Origin: Syntrophomonadaceae bacterium | GTDB taxonomy: Bacteria > Bacillota > Dethiobacteria > DTU022 | Direction: 5' to 3' | Assembly (NCBI GenBank): GCA_003554395.1 | Contig: PWGD01000063.1 | Span: 1-44,573 of the forward strand | DNA: 44,573 bases | In this document: in pieces, positions 13,490-36,123 of the stretch | Layout: every line of letters starts with the position of its first letter | How positions within the stretch are numbered: the stretch's first letter is position 1 | Notes under the pieces: model-generated | Told to the model about the DNA's origin: nothing | The model's database searches: none | The model's input: only the letters and a program-made list of their open reading frames with translations | Made by a program: the position numbers and the translations under genes

Positions 13490-13990
13490 TTGCTAAATCT
13501 ATTTGAACGATTTGTCCAAAACCTGACCTGGCGAACAGCACAGTTAGCCCAGCTGGCCATGGTCGTTGTGATGGCCATAACTGTAACCAATGTGATAATC
13601 CGTATCCCTTTGAGGCCGATCGGGGGCGCCGTAGAACTGGTAGAAATGTCCGGCGCCGTGCTGCTCGGCCTCGGTGTTGCTTATACGGCTATCATGAAAG
13701 GCCACATCATGGTCGGAGTCCTGGTGGAACGTTTCTCGCCCCGGGTACAGGGTTTAATTGAACTTGTTGTTTCTACCATCGCTCTTGTTTTCTCATATCT
13801 CCTGGCCAGAGAAATTTTATATTTTGCCTATGAAAGAATGATGGCCGGATATGAAACCGGACACCTGAAAGTTCCCATAGCTCCTTCTATTTACCTGGTT
13901 GCTTTTGGCTTTATTATGCTGGCTATGGTGCTGCTGCTGGATCTAATCAAGGCTGCAATTACTGTCGTTAAGGGAAGTGAAAGTCAATGA
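13490..13990 (+). CDS. dctQ: TRAP transporter small permease (DctQ)
   Basis: Four-TM small permease between dctP and dctM; likely TTG start near 13484/13490 after ttcagggggg. ORF track starts at 13430. Confidence 0.85.
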   Translation: MLNLFERFVQNLTWRTAQLAQLAMVVVMAITVTNVIIRIPLRPIGGAVELVEMSGAVLLGLGVAYTAIMKGHIMVGVLVERFSPRVQGLIELVVSTIALVFSYLLAREILYFAYERMMAGYETGHLKVPIAPSIYLVAFGFIMLAMVLLLDLIKAAITVVKGSESQ

Positions 13991-15506: not shown

Positions 15507-16238
15507 TCAATTCCCAATATTGTGATCGCCGAAATCATTTGCAGTGGGCTTTTCAATAATAAACAGGCTATCTTCGCTGTTTCTGCTCAACTTCATGGCC
15601 TTCGAAATGGCCTGGGTCCGGTTTTTAACCTGCAGTTTGCGGTAAATATTACGCAGGTGCGTTTTTACAGTATCCACGGCCAGGTTTGTGGCCGAGGAAA
15701 TTTCTTTGTTGGTCAGGCCCCGGACCAGGTGTCTGAGGATTTCCTGCTCCCTCGGGGTCAGCTCGACAGGTTCTTCATCTTTTTTCAACGGTTTTATTTC
15801 AGTATGTTTTTTGCTCAGGCGGGTATAGTCGTTAACAATTTGCCGAAAAACAGACTGGTCGATTATGGTTTCGCCGCCGTGCACCCTTTTAATAGTATCA
15901 ATTAAATTCTGCCGGCTGACATGTTTGAGGATATAGCCGGAAGCCCCGGCCTGCAGGGCTAAGCGAATAGACTCAGTATCCTCAAATACAGTCAAAAAGA
16001 TAATTTTTATATCTGGATTGCGGGCCAGGATTTGCCTGGCCGACTCAATTCCGTTGACACCCTCCATTTTAATATCCATCAGTATAATATCGGGGGCCAG
16101 CGCCTGGGCTTTTTCCAGCGCTTCGCTACTGTTGCCACAGCTTCCGGCTACAGTTATCTCTTCGCTATCATCCAGCATATTGGCCAAGCCTTCTCTGACC
16201 ATCGGATGATCATCGACAATGAGTAAGCTTATGGTCAC
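15507..16238 (-). CDS. NarL/LuxR-family response regulator
   Basis: MTISLLIVDDHPMVREGLANMLDD receiver and LTPREQEILRHLVRGLTNKEISSATNLAVDTVKTHLRNIYRKL HTH. Confidence 0.95.
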   Translation of the reverse strand: MTISLLIVDDHPMVREGLANMLDDSEEITVAGSCGNSSEALEKAQALAPDIILMDIKMEGVNGIESARQILARNPDIKIIFLTVFEDTESIRLALQAGASGYILKHVSRQNLIDTIKRVHGGETIIDQSVFRQIVNDYTRLSKKHTEIKPLKKDEEPVELTPREQEILRHLVRGLTNKEISSATNLAVDTVKTHLRNIYRKLQVKNRTQAISKAMKLSRNSEDSLFIIEKPTANDFGDHNIGN

Positions 16239-17950
16239 TTTCCTGGCTCCTCCCTGGAAGTGGTTTTAACGGGAATACTGACCTTAATTTTGGTGCCTTT
16301 ACCGGGCTTAGAATCAATTTTGCAGTCTCCGCCCAGCAGCAGGGCCCGTTCCTGGATTCCGGCCAGGCCCAGGCGGTGCATAGGCTGCAGCTGGTCATCA
16401 TAATTTTTATTAATCCCCAGACCGTCATCCTCTACAACCAGCTCCACATTTTCATTTCCGAGAGCAAGGCTTACTTTGACGTTGGAAGCTCCGGCATGCT
16501 TGATCACATTGGTCAGGGCCTCCTGCAGGATTCTGAACAGGGCTACTTCTGTTTTCGAAGCCAGCCTCTGTTTTTCGCCGGTAATTTCCAGCTCAATGGG
16601 CAAATTATACTTCTCGCTGATACTGTTGGCATGAGCTTCTACGGCCGGGACCAGGCCGTAGTTGTCTAAAATAATCGGCCGCAGGTCGTATAAGATCCGC
16701 CTGATTTCCTGGATCTGTTCATTGAGGATGCCCGTTAATTCAATGATTTCTCCATGCCATTTTTCCGGCTCCATTTCTTCGGTTGAAGATAGGCGCTGCA
16801 GGCGGTACCAGATGGCGATCAGGGACTGGATAATCCCATCGTGCAGATCGGCGGCTATAAATTTACGCTCATCCTCCTGGGCAGTAATCAGTTTATTGAC
16901 CAGCTGGTGCAGGAGCTGTTCCTTTTGCCCCAGCATGTCGATCAACCTGGCATTTTCTATAGCCACGGCAGTAGCCCGGGCAATGGCAAATATTATTTCT
17001 ATTTCTTCACCGTCAAAACCTTTCGCTTCCGGCGGGCGATCCACCTGCATAATGCCAATTGATGTGCCCTTGCTCAAAATAGGGGCCAGCACAACCCAAC
17101 CGTAATTAAAGTCCTCGACATTTTCCCTGGTCAGCATTTTCTCGCTGTTCCGGGGGTTAACTACCACGGGCTGGCCGGTTTTGATCGCTTTTTTTATGGC
17201 CGGAAAGCCCGGCCTGCCTTTTAAGGCCTTAAATTTTCCCTTTAAAACCGGATCGTAGCTGCCCACCGCAACGGCGGGAATCAAGGTCTGATCGTCTTCA
17301 TCAAGGAGGTAAATACAGCTTTTGGCCGAAAACAAGTCCGCAGTCAACTGGGCTACAACATGGAGGACCTGCCTGATATCCAGGGTAGAGCTGATCGTAT
17401 TGATCATTTCCAACCAAACGGATAGCTTTCTCAGGTGGCGATCTTTTTGCCTATGGAAGAGGGATTCCTGGATAATATCGGCCATGTGCCGCCCCAGGGA
17501 AGCGGCCTTGGCCAGCATATATTCGCCGGTCTGGTAATCAGTGTTGAATATGCCAATTTCCATGGTTCCCACCGGATCGCCGGCCTGTAAAAAAACCGGC
17601 AGATTGGTGGATATGACTGGAGCCAGGGGGTCAAGCAATTTTTTTCTGTGCCTGTTTTCGGGTTTAGAGAGATAGTTATTTAACTGGATACAACGTTCCG
17701 ATTGGACAGCAGTCCCGCTATCCAGGTGGCCCGGTTGCCTGGAAGAATGCCAGCAAACCGGCACCTTACCTTCACGAAGGAGCATCAGGGTGGCCCGGTG
17801 AAAATCATAATGATCTACCGAAGCCTGCAGGGTATGCTGCAGGTTAAGATCTACCTGTTCAATCGATTCAAAATTAGGACTGACCCGGCAAATTAGGATT
17901 AACTCCGGTTTATCTTTCTTTCCTGACGACTGCCCGCTCTTAGTTGTCAA
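16235..17950 (-). CDS. GAF-domain sensor histidine kinase (HisKA_3/HATPase)
   Basis: 571 aa; DERKFIAADLHDGIIQSLIAI H-box, VEDDGLGINKNYDD and GLAGIQERALLLGG; overlaps the response regulator. Confidence 0.94.
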   Translation of the reverse strand: MTTKSGQSSGKKDKPELILICRVSPNFESIEQVDLNLQHTLQASVDHYDFHRATLMLLREGKVPVCWHSSRQPGHLDSGTAVQSERCIQLNNYLSKPENRHRKKLLDPLAPVISTNLPVFLQAGDPVGTMEIGIFNTDYQTGEYMLAKAASLGRHMADIIQESLFHRQKDRHLRKLSVWLEMINTISSTLDIRQVLHVVAQLTADLFSAKSCIYLLDEDDQTLIPAVAVGSYDPVLKGKFKALKGRPGFPAIKKAIKTGQPVVVNPRNSEKMLTRENVEDFNYGWVVLAPILSKGTSIGIMQVDRPPEAKGFDGEEIEIIFAIARATAVAIENARLIDMLGQKEQLLHQLVNKLITAQEDERKFIAADLHDGIIQSLIAIWYRLQRLSSTEEMEPEKWHGEIIELTGILNEQIQEIRRILYDLRPIILDNYGLVPAVEAHANSISEKYNLPIELEITGEKQRLASKTEVALFRILQEALTNVIKHAGASNVKVSLALGNENVELVVEDDGLGINKNYDDQLQPMHRLGLAGIQERALLLGGDCKIDSKPGKGTKIKVSIPVKTTSREEPGK

Positions 17951-19088: not shown

Positions 19089-19835
19089 ATGCGTTTGGAA
19101 AACAAAGTGGCAATCGTGACCGGAGCAAGCAAGGGCATCGGAGAAGCGGTATCTTTGGCCCTGGCCGGCGAAGGCGCCGACCTGGTCCTGGTTAGCCGGA
19201 GCATAAAAGAAGAAGACCGGGTGGTCGGTGAAATTAAAAAAATGGGCCGCCGGGTCTTGGTCAGGCAGGTAGATGTGGGAGACCACAACCAGGTATCCAA
19301 GATGGTCGAAAGCGCGCTGGAAGAATACGGGCATATTGATGTGCTCTTCAATAATGCCGGCATCTATAAACCGGCCATGCTCTGGAAAATGAGCCCGGAA
19401 CAGTGGGACGAAGTATTAAGAATTAACCTCAGCGGGACTTTTTTCTGCCTCCAGGCCGTGGCAAAACCGATGATCGAACAGAAAAAGGGCTCGATTATCA
19501 ATGTTACCTCTTCAGCCGGCCTGATGGGAACTATCGGGCAGATTAACTATACTGCGGCCAAGGGGGGCGTTTATGCCATGACTAAATCTGCCGCCAAAGA
19601 ACTGGCCCGCTACAATATCCGGGTCAACACAATCTCCCCGATGGCAGAAACCGACATGACCCGGGTTATCGCTTCCGACCCCAAGTTTAAAGCAAAATAC
19701 CTGGAACGGATTCCCCTGGGCCGCTTCGGGCAGCCTGAAGAAATCGCCCCGGCGGTAGTCTTTCTGGCCGCAGATGATTCAAGCTACATTACCGGCCAAA
19801 CCCTGTGCATCGACGGCGGGATGATCATGCTTTAG
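19089..19835 (+). CDS. SDR-family 3-oxoacyl/3-hydroxyacyl dehydrogenase
   Basis: VTGASKGIGEAVSLAL, NNAG and YTAAKGG catalytic motifs, C-terminal ITGQTLCIDGGM; RBS aggaggtgtttac. Confidence 0.95.
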   Translation: MRLENKVAIVTGASKGIGEAVSLALAGEGADLVLVSRSIKEEDRVVGEIKKMGRRVLVRQVDVGDHNQVSKMVESALEEYGHIDVLFNNAGIYKPAMLWKMSPEQWDEVLRINLSGTFFCLQAVAKPMIEQKKGSIINVTSSAGLMGTIGQINYTAAKGGVYAMTKSAAKELARYNIRVNTISPMAETDMTRVIASDPKFKAKYLERIPLGRFGQPEEIAPAVVFLAADDSSYITGQTLCIDGGMIML

Positions 19836-19928
19836 GAGCCATCCCCTGCCGAAACTGCTTTAAAGAACTATCAACCAGAAACAAAATGGGGAGCATATTA
19901 ATTTAAAATCTTGATAGGAGGAGTTATT

Positions 19929-21083
19929 ATGGCTAACGATGTAGCCATCATCGGAGTGGGGCAGAGCAATTTTGTCAGGGGCTATGAAGGATCGATCAGG
20001 GAACTATCTTTTGAAGCCTACAGAGAAGCGATGCAGGATGCGGGACTAACCAGAGATGATCTGGATGCTTCAATAATCTGCTCCGCCCCGGAATACGACA
20101 AGCAGCGCAGCCCTTCCGGGTTGATTGCAGAATACCTGGGATTAAATCCCCAGCCCACCTTTGCCGTGGAAAGCGTCTGTTCCTCGAGCACAACCGGTTT
20201 AAAAACCGCCTATGCCCTGATCAAAAGCGGCCTGCACCAGGCAGTGGCGGTGGTGGGCTTTCAGAAGATGTCTGAAATATCATCGGCCGACTCCCAGGAA
20301 CGCATGGGCCGCGGAGCGGACATCATGTGGGAATCACCCTTTGGCACAACCATGCCTGCTTACTACGCCATGCACGCCAGGGCCCATTTTGACACTTACG
20401 GCACCACGGAGGAGGACCTGGCCCTGATCAGGGTTAAGGCGGCCAAGTACGGCCAGCTGAACGAAAAAGCCGTTTACAGGAAAGACCTGGTCATGGATAA
20501 GATCATGGAAAGCGATTATGTCTCCAGCCCCCTGAAGCGATTTGACTGCTGCGCCAATGCCGACGGCTCCTCCTGCATCATCTTGGCTTCCGCGGAAAAA
20601 GCAAAGCAATCATCAGTCCAGCCGGTCTGGATCCTGGGCCTGGGCTCGGCCACTGCTTCCTACAGCGTCACCGGCAGAAATACCTATGCCGGCCTGGAAA
20701 GTGCCCGCGAAGCGGCCCGCCAGGCCTACCGGATGGCTTCCATGGAGCCGCAAGATATCGATGTGGCCGAAGTGCACGACTGCTTTACCATAGCTGAATT
20801 AATGGCTTACGAAAACCTGGGCTTTGCTGAACCCGGACGCGGGGCGGAACTAATCCGCAACCGGGAAACTTACCTGGAAGGGAAAATACCTGTTAATGTC
20901 GACGGCGGGCTTCTCTCCAAGGGCCACCCGATCGGGGCTACCGGAGGTTCCCAGGTCCGGACCATAGTTCAGCAGCTGCGGGGAGAAGCCGGAAAAATCC
21001 AGGTCCCGGGGGCGAAAACCGGCCTTGTTCACAATATTGGCGGGGTAGGGATTTATGCCAACGTCATCATCATGGGATCATAA
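19929..21083 (+). CDS. Thiolase-family protein (SCP2/BbsB-like thiolase)
   Basis: MANDVAIIGVGQSNFVRG, VESVCSSSTTGLKTAYALI, EVHDCFTIAELMAYENLG, GGLLSKGHPIGATGGSQVR; start ATG 19929 with ggaggag RBS. Confidence 0.88.
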   Translation: MANDVAIIGVGQSNFVRGYEGSIRELSFEAYREAMQDAGLTRDDLDASIICSAPEYDKQRSPSGLIAEYLGLNPQPTFAVESVCSSSTTGLKTAYALIKSGLHQAVAVVGFQKMSEISSADSQERMGRGADIMWESPFGTTMPAYYAMHARAHFDTYGTTEEDLALIRVKAAKYGQLNEKAVYRKDLVMDKIMESDYVSSPLKRFDCCANADGSSCIILASAEKAKQSSVQPVWILGLGSATASYSVTGRNTYAGLESAREAARQAYRMASMEPQDIDVAEVHDCFTIAELMAYENLGFAEPGRGAELIRNRETYLEGKIPVNVDGGLLSKGHPIGATGGSQVRTIVQQLRGEAGKIQVPGAKTGLVHNIGGVGIYANVIIMGS

Positions 21084-22296: not shown

Positions 22297-23319
22297 ATGA
22301 CCAAATTCAACCCCCTCAATATACTGGTCGCCCTGCAGCCCGGGCTGGGCAGTCCGGATGAATATAAAGATATCATCGAAGAAAGGTTTCCCGAAAAAAC
22401 GGCCAGGGGCGAAATCAGGATCCGCCTGATCCAGGACGGATCAGCCGAATCAATTCCCGATGAGTACCTGGACACCCATATCGTCGGCTCCGGGGTCATC
22501 GTGGAGAGAGTCCCGGAAATGAAAAATTTGCAGTGGATAATGTCCTTTAGCGCTGGAATCGACCACTGGGCCAAGTGGGGCCAGGTGCCACCCCATGTCC
22601 CCCTGACCTGCCTCCCCGGTGGATCGGGCATCCCGGTAGCCGAGTTCGTAATCGGCTTAATGCTCAACCTGGCCAAAAAATACAACCAGCTCTGGGATCA
22701 GCAAAAAGAAAAGAAATTTATGCGGGTCCGGGGCGAAGAACTGTACGGAAAAACCATTGGCATTGTCGGCCTGGGCGGGATCGGCCGCCAGATTGCCAAG
22801 CGGGCCAAGGGTTTTGACATGCATGTGATCGGGACCGATATCATGAAAATGGATATTCCCCATGTCGATGAACTGTACTTGAACGACCAGGTGGATGATG
22901 TTATCAAGCAGGCCGATTACCTGGTCCTTTCCTGTCCGCTCACCGATGATACCGAGGGCATGATGAATGAAAGAACCTTCAAACTGATGAAGAATAACGC
23001 CTACCTGGTTAACTGCGCCCGGGGGGCATTAATTGTCAAAGAAGATCTGATCAAGGCTTTAACTGAAGGATGGATTGCCGGAGCGGCCAACGATACCCAC
23101 TGGATCAAAAAGCCCCTGCCTTCATACCTGCCCCCGGAAGACGAACTCTGGGATTGCAAAAATATATTGATTACACCTCATATTTCGAGCTGGACCGACC
23201 AGTATGCGCCAAGGTTCGGAGGGGCTTTTGTCGATAACATTGAACGTTTCTTGAAGGGGGAGCCGCTTTTAAACGTAGTGCCCGGCTTCGAAGGAGATCC
23301 GCAGTGGCTGAAAAAATAA
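22297..23319 (+). CDS. D-isomer-specific 2-hydroxyacid dehydrogenase family
   Basis: GKTIGIVGLGGIGRQIAKRAKGFDMHVIGTD Rossmann motif, LVNCARGALI, ILITPHISSWT. Confidence 0.92.
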   Translation: MTKFNPLNILVALQPGLGSPDEYKDIIEERFPEKTARGEIRIRLIQDGSAESIPDEYLDTHIVGSGVIVERVPEMKNLQWIMSFSAGIDHWAKWGQVPPHVPLTCLPGGSGIPVAEFVIGLMLNLAKKYNQLWDQQKEKKFMRVRGEELYGKTIGIVGLGGIGRQIAKRAKGFDMHVIGTDIMKMDIPHVDELYLNDQVDDVIKQADYLVLSCPLTDDTEGMMNERTFKLMKNNAYLVNCARGALIVKEDLIKALTEGWIAGAANDTHWIKKPLPSYLPPEDELWDCKNILITPHISSWTDQYAPRFGGAFVDNIERFLKGEPLLNVVPGFEGDPQWLKK

Positions 23320-23358: not shown

Positions 23359-24501
23359 ATTAATACAGAACTTATAGCGCCATTTGAAAATGCGCTGGCC
23401 CGAAAAGTCGAAGCTGTAGAGCAGTGGAAAACAGAGCGGGGCGGAAAAGTAATCGGCTTTCTCCTGACCGATGTCCCTGAAGAACTGATCCATGCCGCCG
23501 GCTTTTACCCCTACGGGATCGTGGGTGGAAGCACGAACCTGGAAGCAGCCAATACCCATCTCCAGGCCTGGGCCTGTTCTTATTCCCGGAGCTCCCTGGC
23601 CCGGTCCCTGGAAGGTAAACTGGACTTCCTGGACGGGCTGATCATACCCCAGACCTGCGACACGATGCGGATGCTCCTTGACCTGTGGCAACAAATCCGG
23701 CCCCTGCCTTACATGGAGAACTTCCGCCTGCCGCGGCAGGTGGACCGTTCCAGCGCCAGGAAATACCTCCTGGGAGAGCTGGAAAGAATCAAAAAAGGCC
23801 TGGAAGAGTTCCGGGGTTCTCCCATTGAAGCTGAAAGCCTCCATCAAAGTATCAACCTGTACAACCACAACCGGCAGCTTCTGCGCAAAATAGCCTATCT
23901 GCATGCCCACCGCCCGGATCTGATCAGCTCCCGCCAGCTCTATACCGTCATTAATGGCACTATGATTATGGCCAGGGAAAAAGTAAACCGGCTGCTGCAG
24001 TCTCTAACGGAAGACCTGGAACAGAGCCTGGAAACTTCAGGCAACGGCAGCCGCATTCGTCTTTTAATGTCGGGCACCCTGCTGGAACCATTCGAAGTCC
24101 TCGATTTTATTGAAGAATTTGGAGGAACCGTCGTCGCGGACGACTTTCAGAACGGCTTCCGCTACATTGAAGCAGATGTTGAGCCCGGCCGGGATCCGCT
24201 TGAAGCGCTGGCCGAACGCCAGCTAAACCGGATTCCTTCTGCTGCCTTTGATCTTGAAAAGAGGCCAAGAAGGATTTTCCTGACCGAACTGGCCAGGGCA
24301 AAAGAAGCCAGGGGGGCGATATTACTTCACCATACCTTTTGCGAACCGGAAAACTTTGACGGCTATGACAACCTGCGGGCCCTGCAAAAAGAAGGCCTCC
24401 AGGCCATGCGCATTGAAACCCAGTTTGGTGGCGCCGGGCTGGGCCAGATCAGGACCAGGGTCCATGCTTTCATGGAAATGGTTGGAGGTGTGATCCGGTG
24501 A
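23359..24501 (+). CDS. bcrC: 2-hydroxyacyl-CoA dehydratase/benzoyl-CoA reductase family, BcrC-like subunit; probable ATT start
   Basis: The frame is open upstream of the track start (23521) to TAA 23341. The upstream peptide INTELIAPFENALARKVEAVEQWKTERGGKVIGFLLTDVPEELIHAAGFYPYGIVGGS is the conserved family N-terminus. SD aaaggagagg precedes ATT 23359. C-terminus AILLHHTFCEPENFDGYDNL. Confidence 0.85.
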   Translation: MNTELIAPFENALARKVEAVEQWKTERGGKVIGFLLTDVPEELIHAAGFYPYGIVGGSTNLEAANTHLQAWACSYSRSSLARSLEGKLDFLDGLIIPQTCDTMRMLLDLWQQIRPLPYMENFRLPRQVDRSSARKYLLGELERIKKGLEEFRGSPIEAESLHQSINLYNHNRQLLRKIAYLHAHRPDLISSRQLYTVINGTMIMAREKVNRLLQSLTEDLEQSLETSGNGSRIRLLMSGTLLEPFEVLDFIEEFGGTVVADDFQNGFRYIEADVEPGRDPLEALAERQLNRIPSAAFDLEKRPRRIFLTELARAKEARGAILLHHTFCEPENFDGYDNLRALQKEGLQAMRIETQFGGAGLGQIRTRVHAFMEMVGGVIR

Positions 24502-25718
24502 CCGCAAAAAATGTTTTTAAAACGGCCGAATTGATGAAAGAAATAATGAAAAACTACAATCAAGCCGGGCGGGAGGCAAAAAGCGAAGGCATCCCGGTAG
24601 CCTGGGTTACCGCCGTATTTCCAGTGGAAATTATCTATGCCGCCGGCCTGTTCCCCTATTACCCGGAAAATTTCGGCGCTGTGGCCGGAGCCAAAAAAGT
24701 CACCCACCAGCTTTCCGCTGCTGCTGAAGCCAGAGGTTATGCCAGCGATCTTTGCGGTTATGCCCGCTGTGGCATAGGGGATGCCTACTCGGACGAGCAC
24801 CCGGTTGGAAAAATCCTGGAACCAGATCTGCTCTTTTGCTGCAACACCCAGTGCGGGAGCCTGCCGAAATGGTTTGAAGTTGCCGGCAGGTTTTACGACT
24901 CCCCCTATTTCCTGCTGGATTCGCCCAGGGTGGGGGTGGAAACAGATCAGCTTTGCATCGAATACTTTATTGATCAACTCCATGAAATGATCGGCTTCAT
25001 CGAAAAACAAACCGGCACCGCCTTTGATTATGACCGCCTGAGGGAAGTGTTAAGCCTTTCCAATGAAGCCTGCCGACTCTGGAATGAAATCCTTGACTCA
25101 GCAGCCCTCAAACCGGCTCCCTTTGGCTTTTTCGATGCCTGTTTCCATATGGCCCCCATCGTCACCCTCAGAGGAACCAGGGCGGCTGTGGACTATTACC
25201 GGGCTTTGAAAGAAGAAATCGACGAACGGATTGAAAAAGGCATAACCGCCATCCCGGAGGAGCGCTACAAGATCTATTTTGACCACATCCCCTGCTGGCC
25301 AAAACTGCGCTGGTTTTCAGATCTCTTCGCTTCGCATGGCGCCCTGGTCGTTGCTTCCCAGTACACTCACTCCTGGGCCTATTCCTTTGACCTTGAGCGC
25401 CCCCTGGAGAGCCTGGCTGAAAGCTACACCCATGAATTTGTAAACCGCTGTTTTGAATACCGCGTCAACCGTAAAATCAGCTTCATGAAAAAATACAACG
25501 TGGACGGCTTCGTATTATTTTCCAACCGCAGCTGTAAGCCCAACGCTTTTGGCCTTTACGCCAAAAGCAGGTTGATCAGAGAGCAAACCGGTCTTCCAGG
25601 CGCAGTATTCGAAGCGGACATGTCTGACCTGCGTTTGTTTTCTGAGGATCAGGTTTTAGCAAAGCTGGAACCATTCTTTGAACAACTAAAATCAAACAGG
25701 ACCAACAAGGAGGGTTAG
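24498..25718 (+). CDS. bcrB: 2-hydroxyacyl-CoA dehydratase/benzoyl-CoA reductase family, BcrB-like subunit
   Basis: 406 aa; FPVEIIYAAGLFPYYPE, SDLCGYARCGIGD, FDYDRLREVLSLSNEA, LRGTRAAVDYYRALKEEIDERIEKG, FSNRSCKPNAFG; overlaps bcrC-like by 4 nt. Confidence 0.85.
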   Translation: MTAKNVFKTAELMKEIMKNYNQAGREAKSEGIPVAWVTAVFPVEIIYAAGLFPYYPENFGAVAGAKKVTHQLSAAAEARGYASDLCGYARCGIGDAYSDEHPVGKILEPDLLFCCNTQCGSLPKWFEVAGRFYDSPYFLLDSPRVGVETDQLCIEYFIDQLHEMIGFIEKQTGTAFDYDRLREVLSLSNEACRLWNEILDSAALKPAPFGFFDACFHMAPIVTLRGTRAAVDYYRALKEEIDERIEKGITAIPEERYKIYFDHIPCWPKLRWFSDLFASHGALVVASQYTHSWAYSFDLERPLESLAESYTHEFVNRCFEYRVNRKISFMKKYNVDGFVLFSNRSCKPNAFGLYAKSRLIREQTGLPGAVFEADMSDLRLFSEDQVLAKLEPFFEQLKSNRTNKEG

Positions 25719-25720
25719 TA

Positions 25721-27469
25721 TTGAAAAAATTAATGACCGGAAATGAGGCCTTTGCCTACGGCGCCTACCTGGCTGGAGTCCGGGTTGGAGCTGCCTATCC
25801 CGGCACTCCCAGCTCGGAAATATTAGCCAATTATGCTAAATACCCGGGGGTATTCGCCGAATGGTCTCCCAATGAAAAAGTATCCCTTGATGTCGCAATC
25901 GGAGCATCTTATGCAGGCACCAGGGCCATGAGCACCATGAAGCATGTCGGCTTAAATGTGGCCGCAGATTCATTGTTTTATGCCGTCTATACCGGCCTGA
26001 AGGCCGGCCTGGTTATTGTTTGCGCCGATGACCCCAACATGCACAGCTCCCAGAACGAGCAGGATAACCGCAATTACGCCAAGTTCGCCAAGTGCCCCAT
26101 GATTGAACCGTCCGACAGTGAGGAAGCCAAGCAATTTGTGGGGTTAGCCCTTGACATGAGTGAACAGTTTGACACCCCGGTTATCGTCCGCAGCGTCACC
26201 CGCCTCTCCCATTCATCCACCCCGGTGGAAGTCACCGATCAGGAACCGCCGCCGCCGCCGGAGGAACTGCCTGCTTACGAACGGAACGCTCAACAGTTCG
26301 TCATGGTTCCCGCCAATGCCAGGCGCCGCCATCCGGTGGTTGAAGAACGGTTAAAACAGCTGGCTGAGTTTGCCGATTCCACCCCGATTAATTACATTGA
26401 ACCCGGAGATAGCAAGCTGGGTATTGTCAGCGCCGGAGTCAGCTACCATTACGCCAGGGAAGTATTTCCCGACGCCACTTTTCTTAAACTGGGCATGGTT
26501 TATCCCCTGCCGGAAAAGCTGATCCGTAAATTTGCGGACCAGGTTGAGACCATAGTAGTCGTAGAAGAGCTCGATCCTTTCCTGGAAGAGCATCTGAAAC
26601 TGATGGGCCTTGAGGTCCGGGGTAAAGATATCTTCCCTATCCTGGGCGAATTTAGCCCTTCCCTGGTCCGCAGCTGTGCTGTCGAGGCCGGGTTGATCGA
26701 AGCTCCCGAAGCGCCGCCCGAAATTAAAAGCAGCCTGGACCGTCCGATGCGCCCGCCCATGCTCTGCCCCGGCTGCGGTCACCGGGCCCTCTTCCATGTT
26801 TTAAGGGAAGCGGGCGTTGTGGTGACCGGTGACATCGGCTGTTATACCCTGGCTTTTGCCCCGCCGCTGAGCGCCATGCATACCACCGGCTGCATGGGAG
26901 CCAGCATCGGCGTTGCTCACGGCATTGATAAAGCCGGGGTGAAAGATGATGTAGTCGCCGTCCTGGGAGACTCCACTTTTCTGCATTCCGGGGTCCACCC
27001 CATCATTGATGTCCTCTACAACCAGGGCTCCTCTACCACGATCATCTCGGACAACAATGCCACTGCTATGACCGGCTTCCAGGAACACCCGGGAACCGGT
27101 AAAACAATCCAGGGCCGGGAAACCAAGGTAGTGGATCCGGAAAAACTGGTCCGCGGCATCGGATATGAAAAAGTAGATATCTGTGATCCATACGATATCG
27201 ACAAAATGGAAGAAATACTGCAGGATCACCTCAAAAGCGAAGAACCGTCAGTCATTATCGCCCGCCACCCCTGTGTCCTGAGCACCAGGGAAAAACATAC
27301 CCCACCCGAGGTAGACCCCGAAATCTGCATTAACTGCGGCATCTGCCTTGATATCGCGTGTTCTCCGCTGGTCCAGGAGGAAGATCATGTCCGTATCGAT
27401 ACCCTGTTATGTAATGGCTGCGGCCTTTGCGTAAAAGTATGTCCCCAGGAGGCCATTATCGAGAAGTAA
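25721..27469 (+). CDS. iorA: Indolepyruvate:ferredoxin oxidoreductase alpha subunit-like
   Basis: 582 aa; MTGNEAFAYGAYLAGVRVGAAYPGTPSSEI, TPP region LCPGCGHRALF and GDIGCYTLAFAPP, C-terminal 2x[4Fe-4S]; TTG start after aaggaggg. Confidence 0.93.
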   Translation: MKKLMTGNEAFAYGAYLAGVRVGAAYPGTPSSEILANYAKYPGVFAEWSPNEKVSLDVAIGASYAGTRAMSTMKHVGLNVAADSLFYAVYTGLKAGLVIVCADDPNMHSSQNEQDNRNYAKFAKCPMIEPSDSEEAKQFVGLALDMSEQFDTPVIVRSVTRLSHSSTPVEVTDQEPPPPPEELPAYERNAQQFVMVPANARRRHPVVEERLKQLAEFADSTPINYIEPGDSKLGIVSAGVSYHYAREVFPDATFLKLGMVYPLPEKLIRKFADQVETIVVVEELDPFLEEHLKLMGLEVRGKDIFPILGEFSPSLVRSCAVEAGLIEAPEAPPEIKSSLDRPMRPPMLCPGCGHRALFHVLREAGVVVTGDIGCYTLAFAPPLSAMHTTGCMGASIGVAHGIDKAGVKDDVVAVLGDSTFLHSGVHPIIDVLYNQGSSTTIISDNNATAMTGFQEHPGTGKTIQGRETKVVDPEKLVRGIGYEKVDICDPYDIDKMEEILQDHLKSEEPSVIIARHPCVLSTREKHTPPEVDPEICINCGICLDIACSPLVQEEDHVRIDTLLCNGCGLCVKVCPQEAIIEK

Positions 27470-27511
27470 AACCTGGCAGCCTTAAAAAATATTAGAGGGA
27501 GGCACGAAATA

Positions 27512-28063
27512 ATGAAAAACATAGACTTTCTGATGGCAGGAGTGGGCGGTCAGGGCACAATCCTGGCCAGCAACATCCTGGCCGAGGTAGGGCTGCAGCT
27601 TGGATATGACGTAAAAAAAGCCGAAGTGCACGGCATGGCCCAAAGGGGCGGCCAGGTGGACAGCCATATCCGCTGGGGAGAAAAAGGCTACTCGCCCCTG
27701 GTCGAAGAGAACAACGCCGATTATATGATCGGTTTTGAAATGCTTGAAGCAGCCAGGTTCCCCCACTTCTTAAAAGCACACTCCCTGGCCCTGGTAAACG
27801 ATTACCGGATCAATCCGCCCCTGGTCAACCTGGGCAAAGCTACCTATCCTTCAAAAAAAGAAATTGAAACCTTGATCCTGGAAAGGGCTGATAAAGTACT
27901 CTGGATAGAAGGGACGGGAATTGCCAAGAATTTAGGGAACCCGGCCATGGTAGGAGTGGTTATGCTCGGGGCCCTTTCCACCCTGATCGGTGGAGACAGG
28001 GAAGCATGGCTTGATGTCGTCGGGCGGATGGTACCACAGAAATTTGTGGAACTCAATAAATAA
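27512..28063 (+). CDS. iorB: Indolepyruvate:ferredoxin oxidoreductase beta subunit-like
   Basis: 183 aa; DFLMAGVGGQGTILASNILAEVG and AEVHGMAQRGGQVDSHIRWG. Confidence 0.94.
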   Translation: MKNIDFLMAGVGGQGTILASNILAEVGLQLGYDVKKAEVHGMAQRGGQVDSHIRWGEKGYSPLVEENNADYMIGFEMLEAARFPHFLKAHSLALVNDYRINPPLVNLGKATYPSKKEIETLILERADKVLWIEGTGIAKNLGNPAMVGVVMLGALSTLIGGDREAWLDVVGRMVPQKFVELNK

Positions 28064-28224: not shown

Positions 28225-29790
28225 GGGAATTTTGCTTCTTACGGTATTATCAATGCCCACAAATATCCGGAGAAAGATTTCTTAATAGAGTGCAGTCCAT
28301 CAAAAAATGAGCGGCGGGTGCTTACCTGGAAAGAATTTAACGATCAGGCCAACCGTGTCGCCAATTATCTAAAAAACCAGCTGGGGATTAAAAAAGGCGA
28401 CTTCGTTTTGCACCTGCAGATGAACAGCCTGGAATGGATGGTCACCTATCATGCCATCCTCAGGACAGGAGCGGTGGCGGTCCCGCTAAACTTCCGTTTT
28501 GCCAGTTCGGATATCAAGTATGCAGCCGAGGCCAGCAACCCTAAAGTTTTCATCTTAAGCGACGGCTTCCTGGAAAAAGTAGAACCAATCCGGGATGATA
28601 TGAAAACAATTGAATCATATATCTGTATCGGTGACAATGTCCCTGACAATATGATCCCCTACTCCGAGGTCCTTGAACATCCCGAAAACGATGACCTTCT
28701 TGTCGACGTCAATGAAGATGACGAAGCCGAACTGATGTTTACATCGGGGACTACCGGTCCACCCAAGCCGGTCTGCCAGGCCCACAAAACTCTGTACGAA
28801 ATCGGTCTGGGGAATGCCCTCACTTACTCGGAAGGGCATGAAACGGTATATTTAGCCGCCCATCCGCTTTATCACAGCGGCAGCCTTTTCCTGTCTTTCC
28901 CCTCGTACCTGGCCGGCGGCAAGATCGTCATGCTCCTGGAACTTTCAGATCCCAAATATTTGCTTGAAACCATCGCTAAAGAAAAGATCAACAATGGCTG
29001 GGTCACGGTTCCCACCATGTCCGACTCCATTAATGCCATCAAAAAGGGACAGATCGATATTAACGATTTCGACCTTTCCCATGTTACCGGCAACATTGTC
29101 ATCGGCGCCCAGCCGGTACCTTCAGCGCTCTTCAAGGACATGAAAAAACTGCTGCCCTTTAAAACCGGCAATATCTACGGGATTACCGAGGGCGGGGGAG
29201 GCGGAACCTTTAACCTCTATGATGAAGATGTTCTTGATCGTCCCGGATCTATCGGCAAACCAACCTTTAACGTATCCGCCCGCGTGGTCGATGACCACAG
29301 CAATGATGTCCCGGTCGGCGAAGTCGGAGAGCTGCTCTTGAATGGCCCCCGCAATATGAAAGAATACTTTAAAAACCCGGAAATGACCGAAAGGGCCATC
29401 AGGGACGGCTGGCTCTACACCGGGGACCTGGTCCGGAAAGACGAAGACGGTTACGTATATATTGCCGATCGTAAAAAAGACCTGATCATCAGAGGCGGTG
29501 AAAATATCTTCCCGGTTGAAATTGAAGATATTTTGCGGCGCAACCCGAAAATAGCCGATGTAGCCGTGATCGGTTATCCCCATGAACGCTACGTTGAAAT
29601 AGCCATGGCTGTTGTCCAGCTCTATCCGGAAGAAGAAATGACCGAGCAGGAAGTAATCGACTTCTGTAAGGAAGAAGGCCTGGCCCGCTACAAATGGCCG
29701 GAAAAAGTCGTTTTTGACCAGGTCATGCGCAATGTCACCGGTAAGATTGATAAACCCCGCCTGCGGGAAAAATATATCGGTGAAAACTAA
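28225..29790 (+). CDS. AMP-dependent acyl/aryl-CoA synthetase (ANL family); start unclear
   Basis: The track start GTG 28318 truncates the N-terminus. The upstream frame encodes NFASYGIINAHKYPEKDFLIECSPSKNERRVLTWKEFNDQANRV just after SD aaaggaggg. FTSGTTGPPKPV, YTGDLVRKDEDGYVYIADRKKDLIIRGGENI and C-terminal VTGKIDKPRLREKY. Confidence 0.85.
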   Translation, partial: GNFASYGIINAHKYPEKDFLIECSPSKNERRVLTWKEFNDQANRVANYLKNQLGIKKGDFVLHLQMNSLEWMVTYHAILRTGAVAVPLNFRFASSDIKYAAEASNPKVFILSDGFLEKVEPIRDDMKTIESYICIGDNVPDNMIPYSEVLEHPENDDLLVDVNEDDEAELMFTSGTTGPPKPVCQAHKTLYEIGLGNALTYSEGHETVYLAAHPLYHSGSLFLSFPSYLAGGKIVMLLELSDPKYLLETIAKEKINNGWVTVPTMSDSINAIKKGQIDINDFDLSHVTGNIVIGAQPVPSALFKDMKKLLPFKTGNIYGITEGGGGGTFNLYDEDVLDRPGSIGKPTFNVSARVVDDHSNDVPVGEVGELLLNGPRNMKEYFKNPEMTERAIRDGWLYTGDLVRKDEDGYVYIADRKKDLIIRGGENIFPVEIEDILRRNPKIADVAVIGYPHERYVEIAMAVVQLYPEEEMTEQEVIDFCKEEGLARYKWPEKVVFDQVMRNVTGKIDKPRLREKYIGEN

Positions 29791-29942: not shown

Positions 29943-31526
29943 TTAACCGGTGGTCCAGGTGCCGTACTTTTCGCGCAGGACCCGGTGCAGGATTTTGCCG
30001 GTAGCGGTAACCGGCATTTCACTTTCCTTGATAAAATCAATTGATTTGGGCCTTTTGTAACCGGCAATTTTATCGCGGCAGTAATCGATAATCTCCCTGG
30101 CCAGCTCTTCTCCGGGCTCATAGTCTTGATGGGGAACAATAACCGCTTTTACCGCTTCCCCCCATTTATCATCGGGAACCCCGATCACGGCTATGTTTTT
30201 AACCGACGGGTGACCGCCAACCACATTCTCGACTTCGGAAGGATAGACATTTTCCCCTCCGGTAATAATCATATTTTGCTTTCGGTCCACCAGATAATAG
30301 TAACCTTCTTCGTCCCGGCGGGCCATGTCGCCGGCAGAACACCATTCACCATGAAAAGCGGTCTCCGTTTTTTCCCTGTCTTTCCAGTACTCCCTGAAAA
30401 CGATGGGCGAGCGGCTGTAGAGCTCGCCAACTTCACCTTCGGGGACTTCCTCACCGGTAATGTCAAGCAGTTTGATCCGGTCCGTGCCGAATATTTCCCT
30501 GCCGATGGAGCCGAGCTTGGTAAACTGCTCCTCAGGCCGCAGGTAGGTGACCAGCCCGGCTTCTGTTGACCCGTAGGCTTCCCACAGTTCAGCTGATTTA
30601 AAATACTCCATGATCGCCAGCTTCAGGTCTTTCCGGGCCGGGGCCGATGAAATCAAAAGCTGCCGCATACTGCTGACATCATATTTTTGCTTAACATCTT
30701 CAGGCAGGCTGAGGATGGTAATGTAATGAGTCGGCACCAGCGAAGTATAAGTGATCTTGAACTCGGATATGGTTTTTAAAAAGTCTTCGGGATCGAAAGT
30801 GGTCATGTTGTAAACCATGACCGGCGCCGCCAGCAGGGTGTAAGCGAAAGAATAATAAATTGAATTGACGTGGCACATCGGCATGACCAGCAGGATCTTA
30901 TCCTGTGATCGGACGCCCATGTTAATATTGCTAAGCACGTACTGGGCCATATAACTTTCATGGGTCCTGACTGCGCCCTTGGGTTTGCCTGTGGTCCCCG
31001 AGGTATACATGATGGTCCAGATATCGGCCGCATCGACCATGACATCAGGTTCCCCGGCCGGGCTCTGTTCAACAAACTTTTCGTAATCGACAAAACCCTC
31101 CGGCGCTTCCTCGCTGCCGATGCAGATATAATTATCGGCAGGGATCGTTTTTAATTTGCCGCTGACACTCTTGACCCCGTCCACAAAAGGAGCTTCAACG
31201 ATAAAAGCTTTGCATTCGGCATGATTTACAATATATTCATATTCTCGCGGAGTAAGCCGGAACATGATCGGAACAGCTACCTGTCCGCCCTTGGCGCAAG
31301 CGGCATAGATTTCCATCCACTCTGCCCGGTTGTAAGCCAGGACCGCTACCCGGTCTCCATAGCCCACCCCTTTTTCACGAAGCCCATTGGCTATGCGGCA
31401 GGCCCGATCGTTCCATTCCCTGAAAGTAAAACTCTTGTTTTTATCCTGGCAGCCCAGGTGATCGGGATAGTTAAAAGCATTGTTTTTTAGAACGGCCCCA
31501 ACATGCATCCACTTGCTTACGGTCAT
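29943..31526 (-). CDS. AMP-dependent acyl/aryl-CoA synthetase (ANL family)
   Basis: 527 aa; MYTSGTTGKPKGAVRTH, EAYGSTEAGLVTYL, SAGDMARRDEEGYYYLVDRKQNMIITGGENVYPSEVE, PVTATGKILHRVLREKYG. Confidence 0.94.
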   Translation of the reverse strand: MTVSKWMHVGAVLKNNAFNYPDHLGCQDKNKSFTFREWNDRACRIANGLREKGVGYGDRVAVLAYNRAEWMEIYAACAKGGQVAVPIMFRLTPREYEYIVNHAECKAFIVEAPFVDGVKSVSGKLKTIPADNYICIGSEEAPEGFVDYEKFVEQSPAGEPDVMVDAADIWTIMYTSGTTGKPKGAVRTHESYMAQYVLSNINMGVRSQDKILLVMPMCHVNSIYYSFAYTLLAAPVMVYNMTTFDPEDFLKTISEFKITYTSLVPTHYITILSLPEDVKQKYDVSSMRQLLISSAPARKDLKLAIMEYFKSAELWEAYGSTEAGLVTYLRPEEQFTKLGSIGREIFGTDRIKLLDITGEEVPEGEVGELYSRSPIVFREYWKDREKTETAFHGEWCSAGDMARRDEEGYYYLVDRKQNMIITGGENVYPSEVENVVGGHPSVKNIAVIGVPDDKWGEAVKAVIVPHQDYEPGEELAREIIDYCRDKIAGYKRPKSIDFIKESEMPVTATGKILHRVLREKYGTWTTG

Positions 31527-31932: not shown

Positions 31933-33228
31933 ATGGCATTTTATGACGAGAAGCAGGAAACCATGTCCCGGGATGAAATGGAGGAAATTCAGCTCGAAAA
32001 ATTTAAAAAACAGGCCCGGAGAGTTTATAAAAATCCTTTTATTAAAAACAGGTTCGACGAAAAAGGTTTGCTGCCTGAAGATATTAAAAGCTGGGATGAT
32101 ATCAAAAAAGTTCCTTTCATGTCTAAAAGCGACCTGAGGGATAATTACCCCACCGGGCTGGTATCCGGCAATTGGGAAGATGCAGTGCGAATCCATATGA
32201 CTTCCGGCACCACGGGGGTGCCCACTCCCATGATTTACAGCCAAAACGATCTCGATGTCTGGACCTCCTGCATGGCTCGAAATTTTGTGGCCGGGGGCTT
32301 GAAGAAAAGCGATATTATTCAGCAATCCCACGGTTACGGCCTCTTTACGGGCGGCTTTGGTTTTCATTACGGACTGGAAACGGTAGGGGCTAAAATCATC
32401 CCCACCGGGGCGGGCGGCACGGAAAGGCAGCTGCGCCTGATGCGGGACTGGGGAACCACCGTCTTTACCGGCACCCCTTCCTACGCTGTATATATAGCCG
32501 AATTTGCCTCGGAGAAAGGCATCGACCCGGTGAAAGACCTTAAACTGCGCCTCGGCTTTCACGGCGGTGAACCCTGTTCGGACGAATTGAGGGAAAGGAT
32601 CAACGAGCGCCTCGGTTACAAAGCCCACGGGGGCGGCATGAGGCGCTGTTACGGCCTTACCGAAATGGGCGGCCCACTGGCCATGGACTGCGACTATGAA
32701 AACGGCATTCACATCTGGGGCGATCATTACCTGGTTGAAATCCTGGACCCTGAAACCATGGAACCGGCCCAAAAGGGAGAGCCGGGCGAACTGGTTATCA
32801 GCAATCTCAGCTTTGAAATTATGCCTCTGTTGCGTTACCGCACCGGAGACCACGTCATTGCCAGCTTCGAGCAGTGCTACTGCAGGCGAACTCATCCCCG
32901 CATCACTACCTTCCTGGGCCGTCTCGATGACATGATCCTGGTCGGCGGGACCAATATATTCCCCTGCCAGGTGGAATACATCCTGCTTAACCATTCTGAG
33001 CTCAGTGAAAACTGGCAAATAATAGTCGGAGAGAAAAAGGGCCTCCACACTATGAAAATTGAAATTGAACCTGCCACCTGGACCGATGTTGACGAGCATT
33101 TCATAGCAGCCCTGGAAAAAGAACTCCACCAGAACCTGGCCAAAAAATGCGAGATTGAAATAAAACCGATCGGCAGCCTGCCCCGCTTCGAAGGGAAAGC
33201 GGTCCGGGTCATTGACCACCGGACCTGA
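31933..33228 (+). CDS. Phenylacetate-CoA ligase (PaaK)-family protein
   Basis: 431 aa; IHMTSGTTGVPTPMIYSQND, GGMRRCYGLTEMGGP, LLRYRTGDHVI, GRLDDMILVGGTNIFPCQVEYILL. Confidence 0.93.
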   Translation: MAFYDEKQETMSRDEMEEIQLEKFKKQARRVYKNPFIKNRFDEKGLLPEDIKSWDDIKKVPFMSKSDLRDNYPTGLVSGNWEDAVRIHMTSGTTGVPTPMIYSQNDLDVWTSCMARNFVAGGLKKSDIIQQSHGYGLFTGGFGFHYGLETVGAKIIPTGAGGTERQLRLMRDWGTTVFTGTPSYAVYIAEFASEKGIDPVKDLKLRLGFHGGEPCSDELRERINERLGYKAHGGGMRRCYGLTEMGGPLAMDCDYENGIHIWGDHYLVEILDPETMEPAQKGEPGELVISNLSFEIMPLLRYRTGDHVIASFEQCYCRRTHPRITTFLGRLDDMILVGGTNIFPCQVEYILLNHSELSENWQIIVGEKKGLHTMKIEIEPATWTDVDEHFIAALEKELHQNLAKKCEIEIKPIGSLPRFEGKAVRVIDHRT

Positions 33229-33521: not shown

Positions 33522-33935
33522 ATGGGTTTTGAACGTTTTGGAAGATTGAGTTTTACTGCTCAGTCAAAAACGGCAGACTTTGTCGATTTTTTGGAAAAGG
33601 GAGACCTCTATGCCACCCGGTGCGGCGACTGCGGGCTCATCTTTTTCCCTCCCCGGGCAGATTGCTGTTCCTGCTTGAGCAGTGCCATGGACTGGGTCAA
33701 GGTTGATCCCAGGGGCAAACTGGTCAGCTTTACCAGGTCCTATTTTGCCCCAACCGGTTTTGAAAATGATGTCCCTTACGTCCTGGCGGTGGCGGAATTT
33801 GACAACATCAAGGTCTTTGGCCGTTTTAAAGAAGGTTATACGGAGGATGATCTTTCCGCCGGTATGGAAGTGGCGCTGAAACCCCTTACCCTGCCCGACG
33901 GACAGATCAGCTATCAATTCGAACCGGCTTCTTAA
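33522..33935 (+). CDS. DUF35/OB-fold Zn-ribbon acyl-CoA-associated protein
   Basis: YATRCGDCGLIFFPPRADCCSCLSSAMDWVKVDPRGKLVSFT: rubredoxin-like Zn ribbon plus OB fold. Confidence 0.9.
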   Translation: MGFERFGRLSFTAQSKTADFVDFLEKGDLYATRCGDCGLIFFPPRADCCSCLSSAMDWVKVDPRGKLVSFTRSYFAPTGFENDVPYVLAVAEFDNIKVFGRFKEGYTEDDLSAGMEVALKPLTLPDGQISYQFEPAS

Positions 33936-34078
33936 ACTTGGTTGGCAGCAATAGATTTAAAATACAATGCCCAGGCTTGAACCAGGGAGGTGGATAAACA
34001 CGAAAAATGATCACCATCTGAATCTGACACCAGGTTTAGATTAAGGACTTAATGATACCATTAAAAAGGAGGATTAGC

Positions 34079-35209
34079 ATGGATTTGAACAAATGGCCCC
34101 GCCAGGAGGGGATAGTCGATCATCAGCTTTATGGCGATGATTATTTTGGGACGGAACCTCCCTGCATCAAATTTGAAATAAAACCGGTCCTTGATCCCGA
34201 AGGAAAGCAGGTGGAAGGCCTTAACACAGCCTGGGTCACGCTGAACAATCCCAGGCAGTACAACTCCTATACCACCGAAATGGTAAAAGGGGTTATTGCC
34301 GGAATGCACAAGGCTTCCATGGATCGCTCCGTGGTGGCCGTAATTTTTACCGGCGCTGAAGACAGGGCCTTCTGCACAGGCGGCAATACCAAGGAATATG
34401 CCGAATACTACAGCGGCAACCCCAGCGAATACGGCGCCTACATGGACCTTTTCAACGGCATGGTCGATTCGATCCTGATGTGCAAAAAGCCGGTTATCTG
34501 CCGCGTTAACGGAATGCGGGTGGCCGGAGGACAGGAAATCGGAATGGCCTGCGACCTTACTTTATCTTCCGACTTAGCTGTTTTCGGGCAGGCCGGCCCC
34601 AGGCACGGTTCGGCCCCGGTAGGCGGCTCTACCGACTTTCTCCCCGTTTACCTGACCATGGAACAGGCCATGTGGAGCTGTATTTCCTGCGAGATGTGGA
34701 GTGCCTATAAGATGCAGCGGGTTGGCCTGATTTCCAAGGCTGTGCCGGTGCTCAAAATTAACGGAGAATTTGTCCGCAACCCCCTGATTGTCACCGATAA
34801 ATATATAGAAGACGGCGAAATTGTCTACGGCGAAATGGCTAAAGGAGAACAAAAGCAAAAGGGCAAAGAAATGCTCAAGTCCGGCGAAACAGACTTCACA
34901 ATGCTGGATCAAGAAATAGATAAAGTGATCTGGACCCTGAGCAATTTATTCCCCAACTGCCTGATGATGTCCATTGACGGTGTCCGCCAGAAGAAGAAGT
35001 TTTTCTGGGATCAGGCCAAGCTTCCCAGCCGCCACTGGCTGTCCGCCAACATGCAGACTGAAGCATACCTGGGCTTTAACGCCTTTAACACCAAGAAACT
35101 GACCGGCAAGGATACCATTGATTTCATCAAGTACCGCCAGCTTCTTGCAGAAGCCAAGCCTTTCGACCAGGATCTGATCGATGCGGTCATGGCAGATCGG
35201 CTTGAGTAA
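34079..35209 (+). CDS. oah: 6-oxocyclohex-1-ene-1-carbonyl-CoA hydrolase (Oah/BamA)
   Basis: Crotonase-family 376 aa with the long N-terminal region: MDLNKWPRQEGIVDHQLYGDDYFGTEPPCIKFEIKP... LNNPRQYNSYTTEMVKGVIAGMHKASMDRSVVAVIFTGAEDRAFCTGGNTKEYAEYYSGNPSEYGAYMDLFNGMVD. ATG 34079 after aaaaaggagg. Confidence 0.93.
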   Translation: MDLNKWPRQEGIVDHQLYGDDYFGTEPPCIKFEIKPVLDPEGKQVEGLNTAWVTLNNPRQYNSYTTEMVKGVIAGMHKASMDRSVVAVIFTGAEDRAFCTGGNTKEYAEYYSGNPSEYGAYMDLFNGMVDSILMCKKPVICRVNGMRVAGGQEIGMACDLTLSSDLAVFGQAGPRHGSAPVGGSTDFLPVYLTMEQAMWSCISCEMWSAYKMQRVGLISKAVPVLKINGEFVRNPLIVTDKYIEDGEIVYGEMAKGEQKQKGKEMLKSGETDFTMLDQEIDKVIWTLSNLFPNCLMMSIDGVRQKKKFFWDQAKLPSRHWLSANMQTEAYLGFNAFNTKKLTGKDTIDFIKYRQLLAEAKPFDQDLIDAVMADRLE

Positions 35210-35358: not shown

Positions 35359-36123
35359 TTGGCTTACAAGTATATGCAAACTTCAAGCGAAGACGGAGTG
35401 GCAACCATTACTTTAAACCATCCCCCACTCAATGTTTTAAACATTGAGATGATGGAAGAATTAATCCTGGCCCTGCAGTGGGCCGGAAAACAACCCGACC
35501 CCGTGGTTGCCATTACCGGTGAAGGCAAGGCTTTTTCTGCCGGCGTCGACATTGCCGATCATACTCCGGAAAAGGTCGATGCTATGATTGACGTTTTCGA
35601 CCGCCTTTTCCTGGCCATGGCCGACATTGAAAAACCAATCGCCGCCCTGGTTAACGGGGCAGCGCTCGGTGGTGGATACGAAATTGTCCTGTTCTGCGAC
35701 CTGGTGGTGGCCTCTGAAAAAGCCAAGCTGGGCCAACCGGAAATACAGGTCGGGGTTTTCCCGCCGATTGCCTGTTACGTCCTACCCAGGCTCACTTCAT
35801 GGCCCCTGGCCATGGAAATACTTTTAAGCGGTGATACTTTCGAGGCGGCGCGGGGCGAACAGATGGGCCTGGTAAACAAGGTGGTTCCCGCCGATAGTTT
35901 CCAGGCTGAAGCCAAAGATTTTCTGAAGCGTTTCACCCGGTTAAGCCCGCCCGTTCTGGCGCTGACCAAAAAAGCCGCCCTGGCCGGCCTGGGCAAAGAC
36001 TTCAAAGCAGGCCTCAGAGCCATAGATCGAATCTACCTCGATCAAGTCATGAAAACTGAAGATGCCGTTGAGGGGCTGCAGGCCTTCATGGAAAAACGTA
36101 AACCGGTCTGGAAAGGAAAATAA
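35359..36123 (+). CDS. dch: Cyclohexa-1,5-diene-1-carbonyl-CoA hydratase (Dch/BamR)-like crotonase
   Basis: 254 aa; NHPPLNVLNIEMMEEL, GEGKAFSAGVDIADHTPEKVDAMI, GAALGGGYEIVLFCDLVVASE; lies between oah and had genes. TTG start. Confidence 0.88.
   Translation: MAYKYMQTSSEDGVATITLNHPPLNVLNIEMMEELILALQWAGKQPDPVVAITGEGKAFSAGVDIADHTPEKVDAMIDVFDRLFLAMADIEKPIAALVNGAALGGGYEIVLFCDLVVASEKAKLGQPEIQVGVFPPIACYVLPRLTSWPLAMEILLSGDTFEAARGEQMGLVNKVVPADSFQAEAKDFLKRFTRLSPPVLALTKKAALAGLGKDFKAGLRAIDRIYLDQVMKTEDAVEGLQAFMEKRKPVWKGK

Follow-up and report, generated by a model that had tools for sequence, protein, structure and literature searches.

The dhCB-iorAB Locus

We analyzed a 44,573-bp stretch of DNA (the window), positions 1 to 44,573 of contig PWGD01000063.1 from a Syntrophomonadaceae bacterium (assembly GCA_003554395.1; genome approximately 94% complete), with a focus on four consecutive genes, dhC, dhB, iorA and iorB. 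The first two encode PF06050 (HGD-D) proteins (267 and 254 bits, cut-off of 28). Their reading frames overlap by 4 nt (GTGA), iorA begins 2 nt after dhB, and iorB comes next. This layout, coordinates included, agrees with an earlier note on this DNA, which had read the pair as BcrC-BcrB-like catalytic subunits coupled to IorAB, with IorAB standing in for the BcrAD activase. Sequence comparisons and predicted structures led us to another reading: DhC-DhB is probably an ATP-activated radical 2-hydroxyacyl-CoA dehydratase (HAD), most likely acting on (R)-phenyllactyl-CoA or on a closely related aryl compound, in a module leading from arylpyruvate to aroyl-CoA.

IorA passed the equivalog cut-off of TIGR03336 (671.6 vs. 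650.9 bits), while IorB scored 205 bits, under its cut-off of 237, with IorB still the best-fitting family. Under strict cut-offs, searches against solved structures returned no match for IorA or for the 2-hydroxyacid dehydrogenase encoded upstream of dhC.

Conserved ATT start codons are rare, and dhC likely has one at 23359, preceded by a strong ribosome-binding site (AGGAGAGG). No ATG, GTG or TTG is found in dhC before codon 55, the first in-frame one being at 23521. The ATT was kept in five same-genus loci (L029-L033), and the more distant loci L034, L036, L037 and L038 have TTG or GTG at the same position. The ATT start is plausible because a start at 23521 would remove the conserved N-terminus and because ATT, TTG or GTG is retained at this position in relatives.

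DhC-DhB Resembles 2-Hydroxyacyl-CoA Dehydratases

Among the NCBIfam models scored, DhB matched HadB best (266 bits), ahead of BcrB (173) and BzdO (134), and DhC matched HadC best (212 bits), ahead of the double-cubane model (178), BcrC (166) and BzdN (143). The label BcrC-BcrB-like therefore gives way to HadC-HadB-like. Neither subunit reached an equivalog cut-off, whether for HadBC (NF052455/NF052456; 750 and 700 bits) or for the class I benzoyl-CoA reductases (BcrB 487, BcrC 421, BzdO 449, BzdN 454). By sequence, the nearest solved structures were HadB (211 bits), MbdO (135) and BzdO (127) for DhB, and HadC (179 bits), BzdN (135) and MbdN (115) for DhC. AlphaFold models of both subunits (mean pLDDT 88) were also closest to HadB (TM 0.92, rmsd 2.1; MbdO 0.89/3.6; BzdO 0.88/2.9) and HadC (TM 0.93; BzdN 0.90; MbdN 0.84). 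In a maximum-likelihood tree, DhB fell in one group with HadB and two relatives linked to an activase, and the separation of this group from MbdO and BzdO had moderate support (ultrafast bootstrap 88).

DhC contains only three cysteines (C73, C100, C328), and the cluster cysteines of DhB are C86, C119 and C346. DhB also has a catalytic-type glutamate, Glu57, equivalent to HadB Glu55; in BzdO, the glutamate at this place was named as acid/base catalyst (PMC11971306). The three cluster cysteines per subunit and Glu57 were kept in all aligned orthologues. The double cubane of BzdN uses six cysteines (PMC11971306), of which C36, C263 and C293 are replaced by L, Q and S in DhC, leaving the set incomplete (three of six missing). 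Since MbdN also lacks them, their absence excludes only the BZD type, and we did not retain these cysteines as a general test for a reductase. His131 of BzdO was likewise dropped as a test, as MbdO is also without it.

Two different PF06050 subunits encoded together, single-cubane cysteines, HadB and HadC as nearest relatives and an HgdC-type activase in the genome all suggest that DhC-DhB is a HAD-type dehydratase, which we read as a separate subgroup. It shares two PF06050 subunits with three cluster cysteines each, the conserved glutamate, an HgdC-type activase and a D-2-hydroxyacid dehydrogenase alongside with HadBC-HadI of C. difficile ((R)-2-hydroxyisocaproyl-CoA) and FldBC of C. sporogenes (phenyllactyl-CoA). 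However, identity to HadB and HadC is only 31 and 30%, and HadB Ser37 is Ala in DhB. The had and fld clusters use a CoA transferase, whereas here AMP-forming ligases adjoin the genes, which are linked to IorAB and benzoyl-CoA genes. The class I reductases BcrCBAD, BzdNOPQ and MbdONPQ belong to the same superfamily, have the same fold and also lie in aromatic clusters; unlike them, DhCB has lower profile and fold scores for this class, lacks a heterodimeric activase of its own in the window and has no complete set of BzdN double-cubane cysteines.

Two other PF06050 pairs were found in this genome. In the first (L015 6962-9467, contig C48), all six cysteines of the BzdN double cubane are present in the smaller subunit, and this pair may therefore be a double-cubane reductase. 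The other (L016 11475-13872, contig C84) is divergent.

Activase Genes in the Genome and in Relatives

As the earlier note had stated, the window has no activase: a family search found no BcrAD/BadFG gene on the contig. In the whole genome, PF01869 identified three activase-family genes, on contigs C58, C63 and C54. The C58 gene, located after lon and engB, encodes an intact HgdC-type activase of 263 aa (TIGR00241, 292 bits) with C125 and C164 in the HgdC/HadI motifs, and we infer that it activates DhCB in this genome. The genome search proposed in the note thus yielded candidates, but no specific co-distribution with DhB, since TIGR00241 is near-universal (94 of 98 genomes of the class).

In two relatives (L058 and L068), the gene order is 2-hydroxyacid dehydrogenase, AMP ligase, activase, dhC, dhB, iorA, iorB, with the activase directly before dhC. 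L068 has a second set (2-hydroxyacid dehydrogenase, ligase, activase, dhC, dhB) without iorAB directly after. No heterodimeric activase (BcrAD/BzdPQ/MbdPQ) is encoded with the pair in the window, and L058 and L068 have a single HgdC-type one. The tandem activases of the order-mates L109 and L111 were considered and rejected as the DhCB activase in our preferred reading, since in both loci the second gene of the tandem passes the cut-off for BzdQ. These two loci carry BzdPQ, with no partner BzdNO pair in the parts of the sequence that were read.

Conservation of the Module

Forty-two relatives were fetched using exact peptide patterns, and distant relatives were therefore missed. Of these loci, 35 also carry IorA, which directly follows DhB in approximately 25, supporting the tight link between the pair and IorAB that the earlier note had suggested. 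Among 98 genomes of the class, 27 had DhB orthologues, of which 26 had IorA (at least 65% identity; Fisher, 2e-21), 25 BamB (9e-19) and 22 Oah (4e-15), with genomes treated as independent in these p-values. DhB and IorA were adjacent in 20 genomes.

The string of L058 lies on one strand and continues after iorB with PaaK (575 bits), followed by genes for 3-hydroxyacyl-CoA dehydrogenase, thiolase and enoyl-CoA hydratase. In L055, L057 and L060, the order is dhC, dhB, 3-hydroxyacyl-CoA dehydrogenase, enoyl-CoA hydratase, iorA, iorB, thiolase and DUF35.

Neighboring Genes and the Benzoyl-CoA Cluster

The surroundings of dhCB-iorAB are a benzoyl-CoA catabolic cluster (Table 1). The benzoyl-CoA reductase of this genome is most likely of class II and not DhCB, because BamB is encoded on another contig (C41, L077; 1017 bits to Geobacter metallireducens BamB, 4z3w), next to BamC- and BamD-like ORFs, and because the sister genome G009 carries bamBCD-I, the dhCB-iorAB module in the middle, oah/dch/had and the aldehyde oxidoreductase (AOR) genes on a single contig. 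The AOR of the window (38808-40676) was rejected as a BamB candidate, being a true AOR (1aor, 398 bits; BamB, 194 bits).

Table 1. Features of the window and the evidence for their assignment.
Feature	Coordinates	Strand	Evidence
HdrA-, FlpD-, NuoE-, NuoF- and NuoG-like genes, BamEFGHI-type electron module	179..6811	+	Pfam; directly after bamBCD in G009
TRAP transporter DctPQM	12209..15291	+	Pfam
Two-component regulator and sensor kinase, conserved with the module	15507..17950	-	Pfam; in relatives
SDR, proposed 3-hydroxyacyl-CoA dehydrogenase	19089..19835	+	PF13561; conserved in cluster
SCPx/BbsB-like thiolase, proposed to yield aroyl-CoA and acetyl-CoA	19911..21083	+	NF004720 422 bits, over cut-off; BbsB model 167 bits
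D-2-hydroxyacid dehydrogenase, proposed phenylpyruvate to (R)-phenyllactate	22297..23319	+	PF02826; kept before dhC in relatives
dhC, HadC-like beta subunit of 2-hydroxyacyl-CoA dehydratase	23359..24501	+	PF06050; HadC model 212 bits; HadC TM 0.93; proposed ATT start
dhB, HadB-like alpha (catalytic) subunit	24498..25718	+	PF06050; HadB model 266 bits; HadB TM 0.92; invariant columns
iorA, arylpyruvate:ferredoxin oxidoreductase alpha subunit (thiamine diphosphate, two [4Fe-4S])	25721..27469	+	TIGR03336 671.6 bits
iorB, arylpyruvate:ferredoxin oxidoreductase beta subunit	27512..28063	+	PF01558; IorB models 205 bits
AMP-forming acyl-CoA ligase 1, whose start may lie further upstream	28318..29790	+	NCBIfam; linked in relatives
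AMP-forming acyl-CoA ligase 2, proposed 2-hydroxyacid-CoA ligase	29943..31526	-	NCBIfam; directly before activase and dhC in L058/L068
PaaK-like phenylacetate-CoA ligase	31933..33228	+	TIGR02155 354 bits, under cut-off of 646; PF14535
DUF35/ChsH2-like OB partner of thiolase	33522..33935	+	PF01796, PF12172; adjoins thiolase in relatives
Oah	34052..35209	+	TIGR03200 557 bits, cut-off 464
Dch-like enoyl-CoA hydratase	35359..36123	+	PF00378; TIGR03189 151 bits, under cut-off
Had	36148..37215	+	TIGR03201 486 bits, cut-off 339
PadH-like NADH reductase, AOR and Fe-S subunit (AorCBA-like)	37411..41157	+	Nearest to true AORs

Several other features of the cluster were noted. The HdrA/BamE-like gene (179-2920) has an in-frame TGA at 17-19 (NDCSM*ILSPKLVEVD), also present in G009 (L123 6380-9416); its product is therefore probably a selenoprotein, with the real start codon upstream of where the contig begins. 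BamE has been listed among selenocysteine-type genes (PMC5109826). Two fusions were observed, a FlpD/MvhD-like domain with an ArsR-type helix-turn-helix domain (3102-3737, 211 aa) and a CoA transferase with a GNAT acetyltransferase domain (6818-8785, 655 aa). An Amidohydro_2 protein (21104-21964) lies between the thiolase and the 2-hydroxyacid dehydrogenase in 18 of the 42 loci and is absent from others, e.g., L054-L063. Class I genes occur near the module in some relatives, namely BzdPQ (L109 3641-5324; L111 9953-11609) and BzdN (L060 20248-21171), and some relatives of this kind also have BamB, that is, parts of both reductase classes.

A Candidate Route to Benzoyl-CoA

Taken with the gene content of the relatives, the module suggests the following route. 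The PaaK-like ligase would convert phenylacetate to phenylacetyl-CoA, which IorAB, working in the carboxylating direction, would join with CO2 at the expense of reduced ferredoxin to give phenylpyruvate. The D-2-hydroxyacid dehydrogenase would then form phenyllactate and an AMP ligase phenyllactyl-CoA, from which DhCB and its activase would remove water to yield cinnamoyl-CoA. The HgdC-type activase would come from another contig (C58) in this genome and from the same string in L058 and L068. Beta-oxidation (3-hydroxy to 3-oxo) and the DUF35-linked thiolase would release benzoyl-CoA and acetyl-CoA, the former entering the class II (Bam) pathway. We infer here the substrate, the direction of IorAB, and which ligase and hydratase act. 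The suggestion in the earlier note that arylpyruvate chemistry is tied to radical dehydration was a good one and forms part of this route.

The Pad pathway links the same start and end compounds (phenylacetyl-CoA to benzoyl-CoA via phenylglyoxylate). PadE was found at cut-off in none of the 98 class genomes, with a model that may be narrow, and no PadB-like candidate was recognized in this genome at its completeness of approximately 94%. Its molybdopterin enzymes comprise one stand-alone protein and others that resemble formate dehydrogenase or NuoG. We favor the carboxylating direction of IorAB because this known exit from phenylacetyl-CoA was not seen. Tentatively, with the balance slightly against so broad a claim, a CO2-fixing arylacetate route (IorAB carboxylation, ketyl-radical dehydration to cinnamoyl-CoA and cleavage to benzoyl-CoA and acetyl-CoA) could replace the Pad route in strict anaerobes with a class II reductase.

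In methanogens, IorAB has a role in arylacetate carboxylation for phenylalanine synthesis. Reductive carboxylation of phenylacetate in rumen anaerobes and methanogens is the arylacetate-to-arylpyruvate chemistry proposed here, although biosynthetic there. Formation of phenylalanine from phenylacetate and phenylpyruvate is mentioned in PMC7356843. Conversion of phenylpyruvate to benzoyl-CoA via cinnamoyl-CoA and a phenyllactyl-CoA dehydratase has been presented as a hypothetical step for anaerobic benzene degradation (PMC13416013). In the open-access literature, we found no proposal of IorAB carboxylation in phenylacetate catabolism or of a carboxylative phenylacetate route. A similar described cluster is that of Desulfococcus multivorans, with bam, TRAP, IorAB and two-component system genes. 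On phenylacetate and phenylpyruvate, this bacterium forms the TRAP transporter, CoA ligase, dehydrogenase, hydratase and thiolase; the two-component system is in the same cluster, near the bam genes (PMC5109826). It lacks PadB and PadEFGHI as well, and its route to benzoyl-CoA was called unclear by the authors (PMC5109826). A difference is that a dehydratase pair is not mentioned in that report.

Several observations weigh against our interpretation. In the tree, which was built with few references and without BcrBC, FldBC and HgdAB, DhC was sister to HadC plus MbdN (96) and equally near both; the subunit phylogeny called for in the earlier note thus placed DhB with HadB and left DhC undecided. 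Position 39 of DhB, equivalent to HadB Ser37, was Ala in the orthologues looked at. Seven of the 42 loci had no IorA, five of them with approximately 10 kb of downstream sequence, and the co-occurrence p-values ignore shared ancestry. The PaaK-like ligase of the window is under its equivalog cut-off (354 vs. 646 bits), though PaaK of L058 scored 575 bits. The window has only one enoyl-CoA hydratase, which may be Dch and need not be the cinnamoyl-CoA hydratase. Furthermore, IorAB is usually oxidative. The IorAB of D. multivorans was mainly found on phenylpyruvate and at a lower level on phenylacetate (PMC5109826), which does not favor a carboxylating enzyme.

The last two points speak for a rival reading, the same dehydratase operating beside an oxidative IorAB. 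Arylpyruvate from amino acids would then be split between arylacetyl-CoA, yielding reduced ferredoxin for the activase and Bam, and a branch through the lactate and cinnamoyl-CoA, while the PaaK-like ligase would recycle arylacetate. The AOR genes of the window fit an arylacetaldehyde branch. Nevertheless, we consider this unlikely, about one chance in four, as arylacetyl-CoA would be left without a recognized exit (PadE under cut-off, no PadB candidate) and PaaK belongs to the same gene string in L058. In addition, a dehydratase of this kind recycles its electron, so that only trace ferredoxin would be needed (PMC11971306).

It is much less probable that DhCB resembles the class I benzoyl-CoA reductases in function and reduces an aromatic or enoyl-CoA substrate, with an activase from elsewhere and IorAB as ferredoxin reducer. 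The shared superfamily, the location in a benzoyl-CoA cluster and the equal nearness of DhC to MbdN and HadC speak for it, but the profiles, the fold and the DhB tree favor HAD, the genome has BamB, and relatives have BzdPQ (L109, L111) or BzdN (L060) besides DhCB. The neighbors, i.e., 2-hydroxyacid dehydrogenase, ligase, 3-hydroxyacyl-CoA dehydrogenase, enoyl-CoA hydratase and thiolase, also argue for a dehydratase. The original proposal, in which IorAB takes over from the ATP-dependent activase and delivers electrons straight to DhCB, drew on gene adjacency and overlap and on a window without activase. We rejected it as very improbable given the intact HgdC-type activase with both cluster cysteines in the genome, the second L068 set without iorAB directly after and the activase within the dhCB-iorAB string of L058 and L068.

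With DhC-DhB as a phenyllactyl-CoA-type dehydratase, the enzyme families are known, and the conserved module appears to form a route to benzoyl-CoA that, as far as our search reached, has not been described. It offers a nearly complete answer, testable gene by gene, to how phenylacetate, phenylpyruvate or phenyllactate could reach benzoyl-CoA in strict anaerobes without Pad enzymes, and it makes the gap stated for sulfate reducers (PMC5109826) testable. The module would link radical dehydration of the amino-acid type to aromatic ring degradation and, if the route is true, CO2 would serve as co-substrate in the catabolism of aromatic compounds.

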